The notes under the pieces were generated by a model. It ran no database searches. It had not been told where the DNA came from and worked only from the letters and a program-made list of their open reading frames with translations. This document shows, in pieces, positions 1,125 through 7,835 of a DNA stretch of 7,835 nt. The stretch spans positions 8,777 through 16,611 of the forward strand of contig DDHL01000033.1 in NCBI GenBank assembly GCA_002352945.1, read 5' to 3'. A program made the position numbers and the translations under genes. The stretch's first letter is position 1. The number at the start of each line of letters is the position of its first letter. Source of the stretch: Campylobacteraceae bacterium UBA1877. Its GTDB lineage: Bacteria > Campylobacterota > Campylobacteria > Campylobacterales > Campylobacteraceae.

Positions 1125-3173
1125 ATGTTAAAGCCATTACTTATTGAAATAGGTGTAGAAGAATTACCTGCAATTCCATTTTTACGTGAACTTCCAAATA
1201 TAGAATCCAAGTGGCGCAAAGTATTAAAGTCGCAAGAATTAGAGTGTGCGTTTAAGTTTTACTACACTCCGCGCCGATTAGTTTTATGGCATCCAGAATT
1301 TCCATCTTATCAGCCAACAAGAGTTGAGGAGTTTTTTGGAGCTCCCGTTGAGATTGCTTTTAAAGATGGTAAGCCGACTCCGGCTGCACTTGGTTTTGCT
1401 AAAAAGTGTCAAGTGGATGTCTCAGAGCTTAAAGAGAGTGAGAGAAATGGCAAAAAGGTACTCTATTATCAAAAAGAGATTGAAGGAAGCGCCTCCATTG
1501 AGCTTTTAAAAGATATGGTAAAAACTTGGCTTGAGAGTTTAAGCTTTGGAAAATCGATGCGTTGGGGAAGTTTAAAAGAGAGTTTTATCCGCCCCATTCG
1601 CTCTATTGCGATTTTACTAGGAGATGAAGCACTTGAGTGTGAAATTTTTGGAGTAAAATCGAGCCCAAAATTTTATCCCCATAGAACAGTTTCGTATGAG
1701 CCGATCTCTTTTAGCCATGCAAATGACTATTTTGATAAATTAAAAGAGGGTGGGGTTGTGCTCTATCCAAACGAGCGCAAAGAGATTATTTTAAACCAAA
1801 TGGAAGCGCTTGAAAAAGAAGAAGGTATTACAATCCAAAAAGATTTGGACCTTTTAGCTGAGGTTGTAGCAATAACAGAGCATCCAAAAGCGCTTTTGGG
1901 AAGTTTTGATGAAAAGTTTTTAGTGCTTCCGCCTGAAGTAATTATTACTTCAATGAAGGAGCATCAGCGCTATTTTCCAGTCTTTTTAGATGGAAAGTTA
2001 ACAAACCGTTTTGTAGTAGTTTCTAATGCCATTGCAGATGATTATAAACTCATTGTTTCTGGAAATGAAAAGGTGCTTCGAGCCCGACTTGAGGATGCAC
2101 TCTTTTTCTGGGAGAATGATTTAAAAAATGGACTCTCAAGCGAGGGTTTAAAAGATATTGTCTATCTTGAGGGCTTAGGATCATTGTACGATAAGGTTCA
2201 AAGAGAGCAAAAAATTGGAGCTTATTTAGCTAAAAAGTATCTATCTCGCTTAAAAAGCGAGCAGCCAAAAAAAGATAACGAGCAGATTTTAGCCCTGCTT
2301 GATCGAACAATTGGATTGTGTAAGGCAGACTTGCTTAGTGAAATGGTTTATGAGTTTACTGAATTGCAAGGAGTTATGGGTTATTACTATGCAAAACAGA
2401 GCGGACAAGATGAAGCTTTGGCGCTTGCTTTTAAAGAGCAGTATCTTCCAGACAGTGAAGATAGCGACCTCCCAAGTACATACTTTAGTGCAATTGTAGC
2501 TCTTAGCTATAAGATCGACTCTCTTTTGGCTCTATTTAGTATTGGCAAAATTCCAACAGGAACAAAAGATCCATTTGCTCTAAGACGGGCAGTAAGTGGA
2601 ATCGTAAAAATTGTTCTAGCTTTTAACCTTCCTTTTGATATTAAAGCAGATTTTGCCAAGCTTGCAAAGGAGTATAAAGAGTTTGATTTAAGTTTGCTAG
2701 AAAACTTTTTTATTGAGCGATTATATAGCATATTTGATGCAAATCCATCAATCATCCACGCAGTTTTACAAAGTAAAGAGAGAGATTTGTTGGAGCTTTC
2801 ATCTAAAATTTCAGCCCTTAAAGAGTTAAGTCAAAGTAAAGATTTTAAAAATGAGTTTGCAACATTTAAAAGGGTTGCAAATATTGTCAAAAATGTCGAA
2901 CTTGACTCTTTACATGTAAAGCCTGAGCTTTTTGAAGATGAGCATGAAAAGGCTCTGTGGGAAGCTTTTTTAGAGTGTGATTCAAAAGAGTATAAAAACT
3001 ATCTAGATCGATTAAATGCTCTTTTTGGATTAAGAGGTCAAATTAATGCATTTTTTGATAATGTGATGGTAAATACAGATAATTTACAAGTGCGTCAAAA
3101 TCGCCACCACTTAATCGCTTCAATATACCGAGCATTCTTAAAGGTAGCAGATATTAAAGAGATTGGAGTTTAA
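1125..3173 (+). CDS. glyS: Glycyl-tRNA synthetase beta subunit
   Basis: The product is the beta chain of the bacterial alpha2beta2 glycyl-tRNA synthetase, which attaches glycine to tRNA-Gly in the cytoplasm. The alpha chain (glyQ) is not in this window. The 682 residues match the usual length for this chain. Landmarks are the N-terminal LIEIGVEELPA, the central block LPPEVIITSMKEHQRYFPVF, the GTKDPFALRRAVSGI motif, and the C-terminal anticodon-binding part ending with VMVNTDNLQVRQNRHHLI and FLKVADIKEI. The start at 1125 has AAGAGG four bases upstream and gives the expected N-terminus. The gene follows the nuclease and small membrane genes on the same strand. Its last four bases overlap the end of the convergent GGDEF-EAL gene. 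A TTTACATGTAAA palindrome at 2909-2920 encodes LHVK in the C-terminal region. It appears intact. Confidence 0.97.
   Translation: MLKPLLIEIGVEELPAIPFLRELPNIESKWRKVLKSQELECAFKFYYTPRRLVLWHPEFPSYQPTRVEEFFGAPVEIAFKDGKPTPAALGFAKKCQVDVSELKESERNGKKVLYYQKEIEGSASIELLKDMVKTWLESLSFGKSMRWGSLKESFIRPIRSIAILLGDEALECEIFGVKSSPKFYPHRTVSYEPISFSHANDYFDKLKEGGVVLYPNERKEIILNQMEALEKEEGITIQKDLDLLAEVVAITEHPKALLGSFDEKFLVLPPEVIITSMKEHQRYFPVFLDGKLTNRFVVVSNAIADDYKLIVSGNEKVLRARLEDALFFWENDLKNGLSSEGLKDIVYLEGLGSLYDKVQREQKIGAYLAKKYLSRLKSEQPKKDNEQILALLDRTIGLCKADLLSEMVYEFTELQGVMGYYYAKQSGQDEALALAFKEQYLPDSEDSDLPSTYFSAIVALSYKIDSLLALFSIGKIPTGTKDPFALRRAVSGIVKIVLAFNLPFDIKADFAKLAKEYKEFDLSLLENFFIERLYSIFDANPSIIHAVLQSKERDLLELSSKISALKELSQSKDFKNEFATFKRVANIVKNVELDSLHVKPELFEDEHEKALWEAFLECDSKEYKNYLDRLNALFGLRGQINAFFDNVMVNTDNLQVRQNRHHLIASIYRAFLKVADIKEIGV
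2909..2920. repeat. TTTACATGTAAA palindrome, exact copy inside glyS
   Basis: It is a 14-base perfect palindrome with its flanks (2908-2921) and is read as Leu-His-Val-Lys in the C-terminal domain of the synthetase beta chain. Confidence 0.7.
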
Positions 3174-3183
3174 AACTCCAATC
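3161..3183. terminator. Inverted repeat over the two convergent stop codons, possible bidirectional terminator
   Basis: GATTGGAGTTT (3161-3171) is repeated as its exact reverse complement AAACTCCAATC (3173-3183) around one central base. As a hairpin it gives at least an 8-bp stem (GATTGGAG/CTCCAATC) with a 7-base AT loop. Both stop codons (TAA at 3171-3173 on +, TAA at 3172-3170 on -) lie in the loop. The flanks are only modestly T-rich (TCTCTTTAATAT on the - strand side), so termination may be partial. Position and symmetry fit a shared terminator for glyS and the - strand operon. Confidence 0.55.
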
Positions 3184-5086
3184 GCTCTATTGATTCTCTT
3201 GGGGCAGAGAAGTGGTATCCTTGGGCGTATTCAATTCCAAGGGATTTAATGATTTGATAAATCTCTTCATTGCTTACATGCTCTGCAACCACTTTAATAT
3301 TTGCCTCTTTGGCAAAATTTACTATGCTTTTTACAATGGCTAAAGAGAGTTTATCGTTGAGGATATTTTTGATAATATTTCCATCAATTTTTATAAAGTC
3401 GGTTTTAATTTGGGCAAGGTAAATAAAGTTTGAATATCCTGTTCCAAAATCATCAATAAAAATCTTATACCCCATCTTTTTTAATTTTAAAAGATTTTTA
3501 TCTGCATGCTGTAGACGAATCAAATCCTCACTCTCAACAATTTCAAGCCCGATTCTTTGGGCAATATCTCTTTTTTTTGCATACATTTGCAATCTATCAA
3601 TTATAGTATCGTTTATAATATCTTGCGGGTTGATATTTACCGTTATTTGGATATCTGGGTTATCTTTTAGAGTTTTGTAGCAAATTTTTAATACCCTTTT
3701 CGTAATATTTCGTAAAATAAACGTTCCTTTAATTGCTGGCAAAATCTTATCTGGAGTTATAATTTTTCCATCATAATCTACAATCCTAAGAAGCGCCTCG
3801 TAGTGAGAAACTGTATTTGTTTTGGAGTGGACTATTGGTTGAAAATAGCAAATAACTCTATCTTCTTCTAAAGCAGCATTTATTTCACTAATTGAAAGGT
3901 GTCCACTTTGGCGCGCTTTAGAGCCATCTTCGTAAATTTCAATACTATTTCTTCCTTTGTTTTTTGCATTATAAAGTGCAATATCTGCCAACTTAAAAGC
4001 ATCTGAGAAGGTTCTTGACTGTCCTGGAGTTAAATTAACGCCCATTGAAACAGTAATATTTACATATTCTGTATCGGATATATAAAATTGATGGGATTGG
4101 ATGCTTGAGTGAATTCTTTTACATGTATCAATAGATGTTTTACGCTCATCTCTTTTTGACTTAACAAGGATAACAAACTCTTCTCCGCCATAACGGATGA
4201 CAATATCTTCTTCTTTTCTACAATTTTTTAGAATTATTTGTGCAATCTCTTTTAAAATCCTATCTCCAACTTCATGTCCATATGTATCATTAAATCTTTT
4301 AAAATGGTCAATATCTAAAGCTGCTAGGGCATAATTGTCTAGATTGATAAAGTTTTCTATCTCTTGAAGATAGTTTCTATTGTATACATTTGTTAACTTG
4401 TCCAAAAAAGCACTATTTCTTGCAACAATAAAGCGAAAAGTTTGGATTGCAAGTACGGTTAAAAAGAGAAAAATAATTACAATAGTTGCGATGATTGTGG
4501 TTTTCATAGTTGAGATAATAGTATTTACATCTTCGATTTTGCCTATTGAAAAATCAATAGCAAGAATCATCTCAACTTCTTTATTTTGACAAAATGGATA
4601 CAAGTAGGTGATAAAAAGCTCTTTTAAAAATTCATGATGGATAATAACTGGTTTTTTTGTTTTGTATAAGTCCTTCCATAAAGGGCTTGTGACATCAAAC
4701 TTTTGGCCAATCATTGCCTTTTCTTGTGGTGACGAACCATCGCTTATAAAGCGAAAAGTCCCATTTTTGTCTTTATAAACGATATAGGCATATTTGACAT
4801 TTTTAGTTAATAGTATTTTTAGGGCATTGTCGATCTTTTCTTGCAGCTTTTTATCGCTTTTAATCTGCTCAATGTAACTTTTGTCTTTATCTAAAAATGA
4901 GGTTATATATTGAGCGTTATTAGCAGCAATTTTCAATACATCTGAAGTGGAAATTTTGATTATTTTTGACTCCACATCTTCTTCAAGTTTTAGGGTTCCA
5001 TAGAGTAAAATTGCCAAAATAATTGCAAAAAAAGCACTTATTGTAATAAGATATAATGGATTTCTTAACTTTGTTTTATGGATCAT
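3170..5086 (-). CDS. Membrane sensor GGDEF-EAL protein (c-di-GMP synthesis/breakdown)
   Basis: This is a 638-aa inner-membrane signalling protein. A first helix (about 11-30) and a second (about 197-217) enclose a periplasmic segment of about 165 residues. That segment resembles a Cache-type sensor, with KYAYIVYKDKNGTFRFISDG and a following SPLWKDLYKTKKPVI block. The GGDEF domain (about 228-385) has the metal Asp in LDIDHFKRFND and an intact GGEEF at 300-304. The inhibitory RxxD site is changed to KEED (291-294). The EAL domain (about 398-638) keeps EALLR (E430), N484, E515, DDFGTGYS (D545, D546), K567, E602 and Q622, so phosphodiesterase activity is plausible. AEHV replaces the common AEGV. 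It could make or degrade c-di-GMP depending on the periplasmic signal; the direction cannot be read from sequence. ATG 5086 overlaps the preceding stop by ATGA. It is the last gene of the operon. Confidence 0.95.
   Translation of the reverse strand: MIHKTKLRNPLYLITISAFFAIILAILLYGTLKLEEDVESKIIKISTSDVLKIAANNAQYITSFLDKDKSYIEQIKSDKKLQEKIDNALKILLTKNVKYAYIVYKDKNGTFRFISDGSSPQEKAMIGQKFDVTSPLWKDLYKTKKPVIIHHEFLKELFITYLYPFCQNKEVEMILAIDFSIGKIEDVNTIISTMKTTIIATIVIIFLFLTVLAIQTFRFIVARNSAFLDKLTNVYNRNYLQEIENFINLDNYALAALDIDHFKRFNDTYGHEVGDRILKEIAQIILKNCRKEEDIVIRYGGEEFVILVKSKRDERKTSIDTCKRIHSSIQSHQFYISDTEYVNITVSMGVNLTPGQSRTFSDAFKLADIALYNAKNKGRNSIEIYEDGSKARQSGHLSISEINAALEEDRVICYFQPIVHSKTNTVSHYEALLRIVDYDGKIITPDKILPAIKGTFILRNITKRVLKICYKTLKDNPDIQITVNINPQDIINDTIIDRLQMYAKKRDIAQRIGLEIVESEDLIRLQHADKNLLKLKKMGYKIFIDDFGTGYSNFIYLAQIKTDFIKIDGNIIKNILNDKLSLAIVKSIVNFAKEANIKVVAEHVSNEEIYQIIKSLGIEYAQGYHFSAPRESIERLEF
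4119..4128. repeat. TACATGTA palindrome, partial copy inside the GGDEF-EAL gene
   Basis: TTACATGTAT matches nine of the ten core bases. On the - strand it is read as Asp-Thr-Cys-Lys in the GGDEF domain. Confidence 0.45.
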
Positions 5087-5535
5087 TGCAACTCTTCTAT
5101 GTATCTATTGTAATTTTCAGGAAGGGTTATCTTTTGGGCTTTGAGTCTTTTTTTGATAAAGATGATATTTGGTCTGCTTTTTGACCAAAAAAGAGCTCCA
5201 AAAAATCTTTCATCTGCAATGAGCTTTTTGTAGTTGTTTGTAAAAAAGTACCCTTCACACATTGCAAAATTGTGCTCATAATTTTTATTTACAAAGATAA
5301 GATTGGCATCTTTGCAATTTTTGGATATTGAGAAAAATTTGCCATAAACTTTTTTTTCTGATTTTGTTATGTCTGGTATAAAAAGAGTTATAGGTGTTTT
5401 GATGCCATCTTTTGCTATTTGGGAGAGGATTTTTGCTTCAAGCTCCATCTCTTTATCATATTCATCGAGCAAGAAAGTGTATTGGTCGGCAAAAATGAAA
5501 GAGTGTAGTAAAAAAATGAATAGAGCAAAGCGCAT
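5083..5535 (-). CDS. Small secreted, probably periplasmic protein, 150 aa (YfiR-like role inferred)
   Basis: The preferred start is the ATG at 5535, which forms TAATG with the receptor stop and yields a clean signal peptide (MRFALFIFLLHSFIFA, then DQY). An upstream in-frame ATG at 5547 would add MDFL. The mature part is about 134 residues with two cysteines (C74 and C93) that could form a disulfide. Its ending reads FFGALFWSKSRPNIIFIKKR followed by KITLPENYNRYIEEL. I do not recognise a named family with certainty. The size, the signal peptide, the C-(x)n-'NLIFV' core and the position before a membrane GGDEF protein recall YfiR/DUF4154 proteins, which bind and restrain a diguanylate cyclase from the periplasm. 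That analogy is inference. It overlaps the GGDEF-EAL gene by ATGA, so the two are probably made together and may interact. Confidence 0.85.
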   Translation of the reverse strand: MRFALFIFLLHSFIFADQYTFLLDEYDKEMELEAKILSQIAKDGIKTPITLFIPDITKSEKKVYGKFFSISKNCKDANLIFVNKNYEHNFAMCEGYFFTNNYKKLIADERFFGALFWSKSRPNIIFIKKRLKAQKITLPENYNRYIEELQ

Positions 5536-6734
5536 TAGAAAATCCATTTAAAAGATACTCCCACAACTCTTTCTGGTTCGTTTGCTATAAGAATAGGAGG
5601 TGATGAAAAACTCTCTTGATAGATTGATTGGGTCGATTTTTTTAAGAGGTTTTTGCCTTTTAAGCTTACGCTAAAATCTTTTGTAAAATTGTATGTAGCT
5701 CCCAAAGATAGATCAAAACTATCTTTTATGTATAAATCATCATAAGTAAAAGAGTCTTTGTAGATGAGTGAGCCAAAATAGTCAATCTTTTTGAAGCTAC
5801 CCATATACTTTACATAGCCGCCTTTTTGGTAATTGCTTGCATTTTGGTTTTGGGTCGAGAAGTAGTAGTTAAGATAAAATTTATCTGAAGGTGAAAAATT
5901 GTAAGTATAGCTAAAAGAGACTCCTTGTGTTTTAATTCTTTCATCAACGTTGATAAAACCTTGTTGAGTAAGGTAGATAAAATCATCAATTGTGGTGTAA
6001 TTGTAGATGATATTGAGTTTTGATTTTTTGTATGTGTATGCCATCTCTGCGGTGTAAAATTGATACTGCTGGGAGTTTAGCTCTGGCGCGGCAATGTTTT
6101 CAAAGTCAACATTGTAAAAAGATACAGGAAGGTAGGTTTTTGTAAAAAAAGTTTTAAAACCTAAATTTTCATAAGGTGTATAGATTGCTCCAACTCGAAA
6201 AAGCCTTTCTGTGCTATTTTTTAAGCTTCCTTCTCGAATATATTTATCTATTTTAAAATTTGCCAATAGTGTGAGATTATCAAAAACTTTATAATCATCT
6301 TGCAATAAAAATGAGTAGGTATTTTCTTTGTCAAAGTCATTTATGCTTAAATCCATCTCTTGATTAAGACTATTTGTAGCGCTAAAGGTTGTGGTGTCAT
6401 ATTTTTTGCTAAAAAAGTGCACTCCTGTTAAGAGGGTGTGTTTGTTTAGTTGAAAGGTTTTTAACAAGCTTGCATTGATTTTTGAAAAAGTTAAATCTTG
6501 ATATAGAGTTATTGGTGTGGTGGTGTCTGGGTCTGAAAAGTCAATGAGGGGCAAAAAGCCAATGCCTTCTGAATTCTCTTCGTCATATTGGTATTGGTTT
6601 ACTCCAATGGAAAAATTTGCTTTTAGCGATTCATCGTATAAAAAGTAGCTTGTAACATCTAAAAAGTAGCTTTTTTCCTCCATCTCTCCACTGTCTGGAT
6701 CTGCATCTAAAGACATGCCTGTAAAAATATCTTT
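5535..6734 (-). pseudogene. TonB-dependent-receptor-like protein, beta-barrel part after the internal stop
   Basis: This continues the receptor gene in the same frame directly after the TAA at 6735-6737: KDIFTG, then MSLDADPDSGEMEEKSYF. The remaining 398 or so residues are rich in alternating aromatic/polar strands (YNYTTIDDFIYLTQQ, SFSYTYNFSPSDKFYLNYYF) typical of a 22-strand outer-membrane barrel. They end with VVGVSFKWIF, the terminal aromatic residue used as the barrel assembly signal. Taken alone this part has no signal peptide. The first ATG (6716) has no convincing ribosome-binding site and falls seven codons after the stop, so an independent product is unlikely. No other frameshift or stop is seen, so the decay, if real, is recent. 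Its TAA overlaps the start of the small periplasmic gene. Confidence 0.85.
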
Positions 6735-6737
6735 TTA
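6735..6737 (-). other. In-frame TAA interrupting the receptor gene
   Basis: The codons around it read GAT GCT TAA AAA GAT ATT. The frame before and after is the same, so this is one nonsense codon and not a frameshift. A sense codon such as AAA or CAA one base away would restore a 635-residue receptor. A sequencing error remains possible. Confidence 0.85.
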
Positions 6738-7442
6738 AGCATCGGTGTATCCAAAATTTATCTTGGTTGTTTCATTGCTGATATCTGCAAAAAAGAATTT
6801 TGTATCTTTATTGTTATAAAGCTCTTTGTCTTTTGTTGTGAAATTTTCTTTTGAAATTGAATTGTTTGCAAAAAAGAGATAGGACCAGCCATCTTCAAAG
6901 CTTTGAGAGTGCATGATGCTTTGCGAGTGGGAATTTTCAGAGTTTGCGTGAATTTGCAACTGCGTGCCATTTTCTTTTTTAGCAGATTTTGTGTAGATTC
7001 TAACAAAATATACCCCAGTTGAATCGCCTAGTTTAAAAGAGCTATCCCCATAGTAAATTTCGATATGATCTATAAAATCAAGGGGTATATCAGCCCAGCC
7101 AAAAGAGGGAGAGTGTAGATAGGCTGAGCTAAACTCATAATCATTTATAAAAAATCGAAAAAATCCACTAACTGACTTGCTGCCAGTCAAAAGAGGAGTT
7201 TCATTGCCAAGCTTATTTTTTCCCATACTCATAAGAGGAAGCTCTTTTAAAATGTCATTTAAACTTTGGTATTGGAACTTGCGAATCTCTTCTTGAGAGT
7301 AGATGATTACATGCCCTAGTTTTTCATCAACTGTTTGTAAAGATTGCTCAACGGTGCTTTTATACTGTTTTAAAAGCATATCAAGCGATTCGCCAAAAAG
7401 AGAGTTGATAATAAAGAGTAAAAAGAAGCCAGCTTTCTTCAT
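6735..7442 (-). pseudogene. TonB-dependent-receptor-like protein, signal peptide and plug part
   Basis: This is the N-terminal 235 residues of an outer-membrane receptor. ATG 7442 is chosen because AAGG (7451-7448) lies five bases upstream; the GTG at 7448 overlaps that site. A signal peptide (MKKAGFFLLFIINSLFG) is followed by LDMLLKQYK, then the plug domain at about 40-155: TVDEKLGHVIIYSQEEIRKF, SLNDILKELPLM, the GSKSVSGFFRFFINDYE strand, and PLDFIDHIEIYYGDSSFKLG, which matches the usual 'IERIEV.RGP' plug motif in altered form. The first barrel strands follow. I see no clear TonB box after the signal peptide, which would fit a receptor used for sensing or with atypical energising; the ligand is unknown. 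Translation ends at the internal TAA. Unless it is read through, no barrel would be made and the product should be non-functional. Confidence 0.87.
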
Positions 7443-7599: not shown

Positions 7600-7835
7600 A
7601 TGAAAAAAGAGTTGTTTGATTCAATCAAAAAAGTGCGTGATGCAAGATGGTTTTCAAACCTTACTACTGCAATCATTATCTTTTACGCTTCTGTTTTGGG
7701 TTTTAAAACCTTAGAGGAAGCCGCGCAACCTTATGGAAATATTTTATTTGTTTTAGACTGGATAGTTACAATCTATTTTGTTGTTGAGATTGCAATAAAG
7801 CTTGCCGCTGAAGAGAGATGGCAAGATTTTTTCAA
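7600..7835 (+). CDS. Voltage-gated ion channel family protein (BacNav-like), N-terminal part, cut by window end
   Basis: ATG 7600 follows AAAGGAGAG, a strong ribosome-binding site. The 78 visible codons start MKKELFDSIKKVRDARWFSN and contain two membrane helices. S1 is about 19-36 (LTTAIIIFYASVLGFKT). S2 is about 50-69 (ILFVLDWIVTIYFVVEIAIK), with the acidic residue in FVVEIAIKL that is typical of S2 in six-helix voltage-gated cation channels; DFF follows at the edge. The pattern and spacing resemble the bacterial sodium channel family, which includes the Arcobacter butzleri channel NavAb. The S4 voltage sensor and the pore filter are outside the window, so ion selectivity cannot be judged and a potassium or non-selective channel remains possible. 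Confidence 0.8.
   Translation, partial: MKKELFDSIKKVRDARWFSNLTTAIIIFYASVLGFKTLEEAAQPYGNILFVLDWIVTIYFVVEIAIKLAAEERWQDFF

Follow-up and report, generated by a model that had tools for sequence, protein, structure and literature searches.

The minus strand of a 7,835-nucleotide stretch of DNA from Campylobacteraceae bacterium UBA1877 (G000:C47:8777-16611, the window hereafter), part of a draft genome of 1.94 Mb that is 82% complete, carries three genes within positions 3170-7442. In order, they encode a receptor of the TonB type, a 154-amino-acid (aa) protein, and a 638-aa enzyme, and their products are predicted to reside in the outer membrane, the periplasm, and the inner membrane. An earlier note made from the sequence alone had claimed this order and the two gene junctions. 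The map of open reading frames (ORFs) shows the former, and both junctions can be read directly: TAATG (5537-5533) holds the bases common to the receptor stop and an inner start of the periplasmic gene, and ATGA (5086-5083) is the overlap of the periplasmic stop with the enzyme start. The single promoter that the note also proposed found no support, as the promoter-like site in the best position (7501-7473) belongs to a set of 19, and shuffled sequences average 20.1.

The receptor gene extends from ATG 7442 to a stop at 5535 according to the ORF list and a read-out of the frame. It had been taken for one open frame, which it is not: an in-frame TAA (6735-6737) splits it into 237 aa (from GTG 7448; 235 from ATG 7442) and 393 aa, both in the same frame. 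The first part (6735-7442) has a signal-peptide-like start, a periplasmic tail, and a Plug domain (PF07715, 32.9 bits) and terminates at the TAA; the second part (5535-6734), past the TAA, is the beta-barrel (PF00593, 48.7 bits), and both matches are above the Pfam cut-off. The predicted receptor fold has the hallmark of TonB-dependent receptors, a plug within a large beta-barrel, and the family receptors are predicted to be plugged barrels of the 22-strand type in which the plug is conserved. By Pfam, the window receptor and three intact relatives have only Plug and barrel, with no N-terminal signalling domain, and the receptor showed no domain for peptidoglycan binding. The conserved tail ahead of the plug (7314-7391) is a candidate periplasmic contact. 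The absence of a clear TonB box, already remarked in the earlier note, holds as far as a simple pattern of our own can tell, which was found neither in the window tail nor among 89 full-length receptors of the family, a result compatible with a divergent box. The pattern matched both other Plug receptors of the window genome, a control of only two.

The periplasmic protein (5083-5547; alternative start at the inner ATG 5535) was not assigned to any family by Pfam, NCBIfam, or sequence searches of solved structures, and the 154-aa protein had no match to a binding-protein Pfam family. Structure prediction gave a YfiR-like fold. Comparison of profiles gave a match between the periplasmic family and YfiR/HmsC (77%, E 2e-5 with A1; 47%, E 2e-4 with A2). 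No match to PF13689, the YfiR family, was above the cut-off in the window protein and 10 relatives; the control proteins at loci L212 and L213 scored 125.6 and 126.9 bits. Of 88 near relatives, all have the cysteine C78 and 84 have C97.

The inner-membrane enzyme (3170-5086) was identified from its ORF and Pfam matches above the cut-off. The GGDEF domain (3947-4411, 132.1 bits) has the motif GGEEF and the EAL domain (3200-3886, 209.4 bits) the motifs EALLR and DDFGTG, all read from the translation. Ahead of them lies a sensor stretch (4403-5086) of membrane segments and a Cache-like domain, which a sensor profile also recognizes in the kinases of sister operons. The earlier description of a GGDEF-EAL enzyme with a Cache-like domain thus stands for the two catalytic domains, whereas the Cache-like domain is assigned from sub-threshold matches (dCache_1, E 0.011) because the sensor profile had no significant match among solved structures. 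CHASE8 had no match in the window enzyme. The AAVVF contact motif of YfiN was absent from all 99 family outputs and present in Escherichia coli YfiN, the positive control.

The periplasmic protein was sought in 100 relatives, where 16 had a match, in the GTDB species set, which yielded four loci, and in 397 genomes of the class, where a 23-row profile gave 100 matches in 88 genomes and 26 of 69 genera (309 genomes had no match). Sulfurospirillum and Sulfurimonas are the named relatives with the operon, which is intact in Sulfurospirillum arcachonense (L053). We compared the neighborhoods of 106 stretches including the window (the 100 profile matches, 5 more relative loci, and L055), taking L052, L053, and L054 as the same contigs as L031, L124, and L128 and leaving them uncounted. 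The periplasmic gene is present in 104 of the stretches; it is missing from L206, at a contig edge, and from L207, where a protein that is ModA-like by eye had given a false match. With adjacency defined as no more than 300 bases on the same strand, the receptor is directly upstream in 99 of the 104 loci and a signalling protein directly downstream in 99. Rare adjacency of the three families in other genomes had been set beforehand as the outcome that would count against the proposed sensing chain; all three are adjacent in 97 of the 104 loci, a recurrence that makes the gene order more than chance. Both intergenic gaps are 0 or less in 82 of these 97 complete loci. The exceptions are L035 and L176 (no adjoining receptor), L045 (no adjoining output), L174 and L183 (neither), L048 (enzyme upstream of the receptor), and L182 (close to the end of its contig). 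Some of the loci are not independent, since the periplasmic proteins of L032 and L127 are identical. In a mirror-tree comparison of 56 operons, all pairs of proteins correlated at 0.88 to 0.96, with no pair set apart.

The sources of the protein matches (all 119 in one list and the best 120 of 191 in another) were labelled mostly as Campylobacterota. Also among them were a single 'Proteobacteria bacterium' label and a single 'Thermoprotei archaeon' label; no systematic search was made beyond the class of the window. The archaeal label (P0128) probably belongs to a mislabelled metagenome bin (compare G070:C47).

The signalling proteins encoded downstream are not of one kind. Among the 99 outputs, 73 are GGDEF-EAL proteins, 16 have GGDEF only, and 10 are histidine kinases. 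A sensor model built from the stretch ahead of GGDEF in 64 cyclases nevertheless matches 98 of the 99, including 9 of the 10 kinases (E 3e-37 to 3e-53), and misses only the L173 kinase. Only three other ORFs in the locus stretches matched, all in the same operons or at contig ends. With the sensor alone as the query against the same 397 genomes (32-row alignment including four kinases), 96 matches, spread over 87 genomes, scored above 100 bits, and the periplasmic gene was directly upstream in 93. Matches below 50 bits, to other membrane proteins, were left uncounted. Viewed from the other side, the sensor is directly downstream of 93 of the 100 periplasmic matches. The conserved unit is therefore receptor, periplasmic protein, and sensor, and the output domain is exchanged between operons.

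The catalytic motif GGEEF/GGDEF is retained in 83 of the 89 outputs that carry a GGDEF domain, and both EAL motifs sought are present in 63 of the 73 EAL domains. Because these motifs are mostly retained, the enzyme may be able to switch between synthesis and breakdown of cyclic di-GMP (c-di-GMP), by analogy with NspS-MbaA. An EAL protein gene comes after the kinase in 7 of the 10 kinase operons (L179, L180, and L201-L205), directly in each case, an arrangement that suggests, from gene content, a kinase-to-phosphodiesterase phosphorelay behind the same sensory front end. The proposal that the operon sets c-di-GMP thus fits most loci, which have GGDEF-EAL or GGDEF outputs, but not as an exclusive tie, since with 10 of 99 outputs being histidine kinases the unit is not bound to this messenger.

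Three strong sensor matches lacked a periplasmic gene directly upstream: the rearranged operon L048, and L212 and L213. The latter two combine a YfiR that matches PF13689 with a large receptor and the same kind of sensor, in the order YfiR, receptor, output (kinase); in L212, the one fully scanned, the receptor is of the Plug/barrel type and the output is a kinase. Judged by their sequences, these operons are a bridge, in which the same kind of sensor is paired with either the new periplasmic family or a genuine YfiR, with a TonB-type receptor both times. A further locus (L080:4335-8007, G018:C42) encodes, in order, a Plug/barrel receptor, a PF13689 YfiR, and a CHASE8-HAMP-GGDEF protein, and its domain content shows a TonB-type receptor beside what would be a canonical YfiR and YfiN-like pair. 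The genuine YfiR operons of the class (L080, L212, and L213) thus resemble the window operon in having a TonB-type receptor, a YfiR or YfiR-like protein, and a membrane sensor protein; they differ in that their YfiR matches PF13689 and, in L212 and L213, in gene order. PF13689 matches were present in 10 of the 100 relatives, one of which (G064) had seven. YfiR domains also occur in single chains with other modules, fused to a SpoIIE phosphatase domain (L084:5122-7035) or to a histidine kinase with a receiver domain (L085:4357-6909).

The interruption of the window receptor is not unique. Of 97 evaluable receptors, 8 are interrupted: by in-frame stops in the window, L055, L127, and L149, by frameshifts in L030, L157, and L181, and by an insertion in L032 (L032:8558-10478, G079) with three ORFs that are transposase-like by eye. 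In comparison, 1 of 98 outputs is shortened (L196, close to a contig end; Fisher P 0.018), and the periplasmic gene is shortened in 1 of 104 loci (L155, in-frame stop). The L034 receptor, part of which is masked, and the L194 receptor, at a contig edge, did not enter these counts, nor did the L046 output, also at a contig edge. The difference gives a hint that, of all components, the outer input is lost most easily, although part of the lesions may be error because several of the genomes are drafts. Phase variation of the receptor was considered and rejected. No homopolymer run is present at the window stop or at the lesions of L055, L127, L149, and L157, and runs of 6 to 7 lie near those of L030 and L181. 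Scattered inactivation or assembly error is the likelier cause, since such runs are absent at most of the lesions checked. With its receptor interrupted as assembled, the window genome would lack the outer input of the relay considered next.

The closest known counterpart is YfiBNR of Pseudomonas aeruginosa and E. coli, in which, as the accounts in PMC3375315 and PMC4887326 have it, outer-membrane YfiB sequesters YfiR from YfiN. Both systems combine an outer-membrane part, a periplasmic part with the YfiR fold (predicted here), and an inner-membrane enzyme with a periplasmic sensor. In the account of Malone et al. (PMC3375315), the YfiR-YfiN core is modular and is coupled to GGDEF-EAL, Hpt, or kinase outputs, so that distant Yfi systems vary in output as these operons do, and among the more divergent Yfi operons almost none has a yfiB homolog; TonB-type receptors are not mentioned in section 12 of that article. 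The differences are that the outer part here is a TonB-type Plug/barrel receptor rather than the Pal-like lipoprotein YfiB (a comparison of operons only, the rest of the genome being unsearched for yfiB), that the periplasmic protein has no PF13689 match, and that the sensor has neither AAVVF nor a CHASE8 match. The interpretation in the earlier note is partly supported. The predicted fold, the YfiR/HmsC profile match, the conserved order, and the bridging operons speak for its likeness to YfiBNR, and it needs changing in two points, as the receptor is interrupted in this genome and the outputs are not only c-di-GMP enzymes.

We consider it probable, though with considerable reservation, that the three proteins form a relay across the envelope in which the receptor controls the hold of the YfiR-fold protein on the Cache-like sensor of the c-di-GMP enzyme. 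The free YfiR-fold protein would bind and restrain the sensor. Upon binding an outside ligand, the receptor would draw the periplasmic protein off the sensor through its conserved periplasmic tail or its plug, a step modelled on YfiB and YfiR. The state of the receptor would thereby place the YfiR-fold protein on or off the sensor of an enzyme predicted both to make and to break down c-di-GMP or, in sister operons, of a kinase.

An alternative is that the receptor imports a small molecule and that the periplasmic protein, a small solute-binding protein, takes it up and, once loaded, switches the sensor by docking there, acting as a messenger rather than as a sequestered repressor. NspS-MbaA would be the model for such a scheme, but NspS, of the PotD type, is much larger, whereas the periplasmic protein here is only 154 aa and YfiR-like and belongs to a unit with an outer-membrane receptor. 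What the two systems have in common is a GGDEF-EAL enzyme in the membrane and a periplasmic protein believed to switch it (PMC8967002 for Vibrio cholerae). Against this scheme stand the lack of a TonB-box-like pattern in all 89 receptors (with the two-receptor control), the genuine YfiR that occupies the same place in the bridge operons, and the labelled neighbor classes, which are receptor, periplasmic protein, GGDEF, EAL, and kinase and include no transporter. We regard this alternative as rather unlikely.

It is also conceivable that the receptor needs no ligand and reports the state of the outer membrane or peptidoglycan as YfiB is believed to do, with the other two proteins acting like YfiR and YfiN. 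This gauge of envelope stress would have the same logic as YfiBNR (PMC3375315), and the receptors are without a known ligand. However, a plugged barrel of the 22-strand type with a conserved plug is a build for ligands, and the receptor yielded no peptidoglycan-binding domain, so we judge this explanation improbable. That the genes have no more in common than their promoter and the condition under which they are used, their products not acting on one another, is very improbable, for although gene overlap by itself is no proof of contact, the sensor keeps its place beside the periplasmic gene across 26 of 69 genera while the class of output is swapped.

TonB-dependent transducers (FecA, PupB, and FpvA with their sigma regulators), as generally summarized, share with the proposed receptor-controlled relay a receptor of the TonB type that conveys a signal from outside inward. 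The receptors here differ in having Plug and barrel only by Pfam, without the N-terminal signalling domain, in working with a soluble periplasmic partner, and in an output of c-di-GMP or kinase activity rather than a sigma factor. In a survey of Campylobacterota signalling (PMC9239204), TonB comes up in a single passage, on FecA with FecI and FecR. The unit of receptor, YfiR-like protein, and sensor is undescribed in the titles and abstracts surveyed of the open-access literature on YfiR, TonB receptors, and Sulfurospirillum c-di-GMP.

The operons may represent a general class of envelope-spanning relays, with signalling TonB-type receptors, a dedicated YfiR-fold protein, a matching Cache sensor, and exchangeable outputs, a generalization to which we give somewhat less than even chances. 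If it is true, TonB-type receptors gain a signalling route besides the sigma-factor transducers, and YfiR-like proteins would commonly have such a receptor as their outer partner. A TonB-type receptor would then fill the outer slot of a YfiR-like system, the slot for which nearly all the more divergent Yfi operons have no yfiB (PMC3375315). In our view, how c-di-GMP enzymes read signals from beyond the outer membrane is a largely open field, and here a candidate surface input, messenger, and sensor are packed in one compact and repeatedly conserved unit. The swaps of output among GGDEF-EAL, GGDEF, and kinase, with the remainder constant, amount to a natural experiment.

No RNA family reached its gathering score in the window, and a search of 72,556 plasmid records gave 0 matches. 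The convergent neighbor of the operon encodes the beta subunit of glycyl-tRNA synthetase. Positions 1-924 encode a nuclease/phosphatase-like protein, truncated by the window edge and under the Pfam cut-off, and positions 7600-7833 hold the beginning of a gene for an ion-channel-like protein, divergent from the receptor gene.
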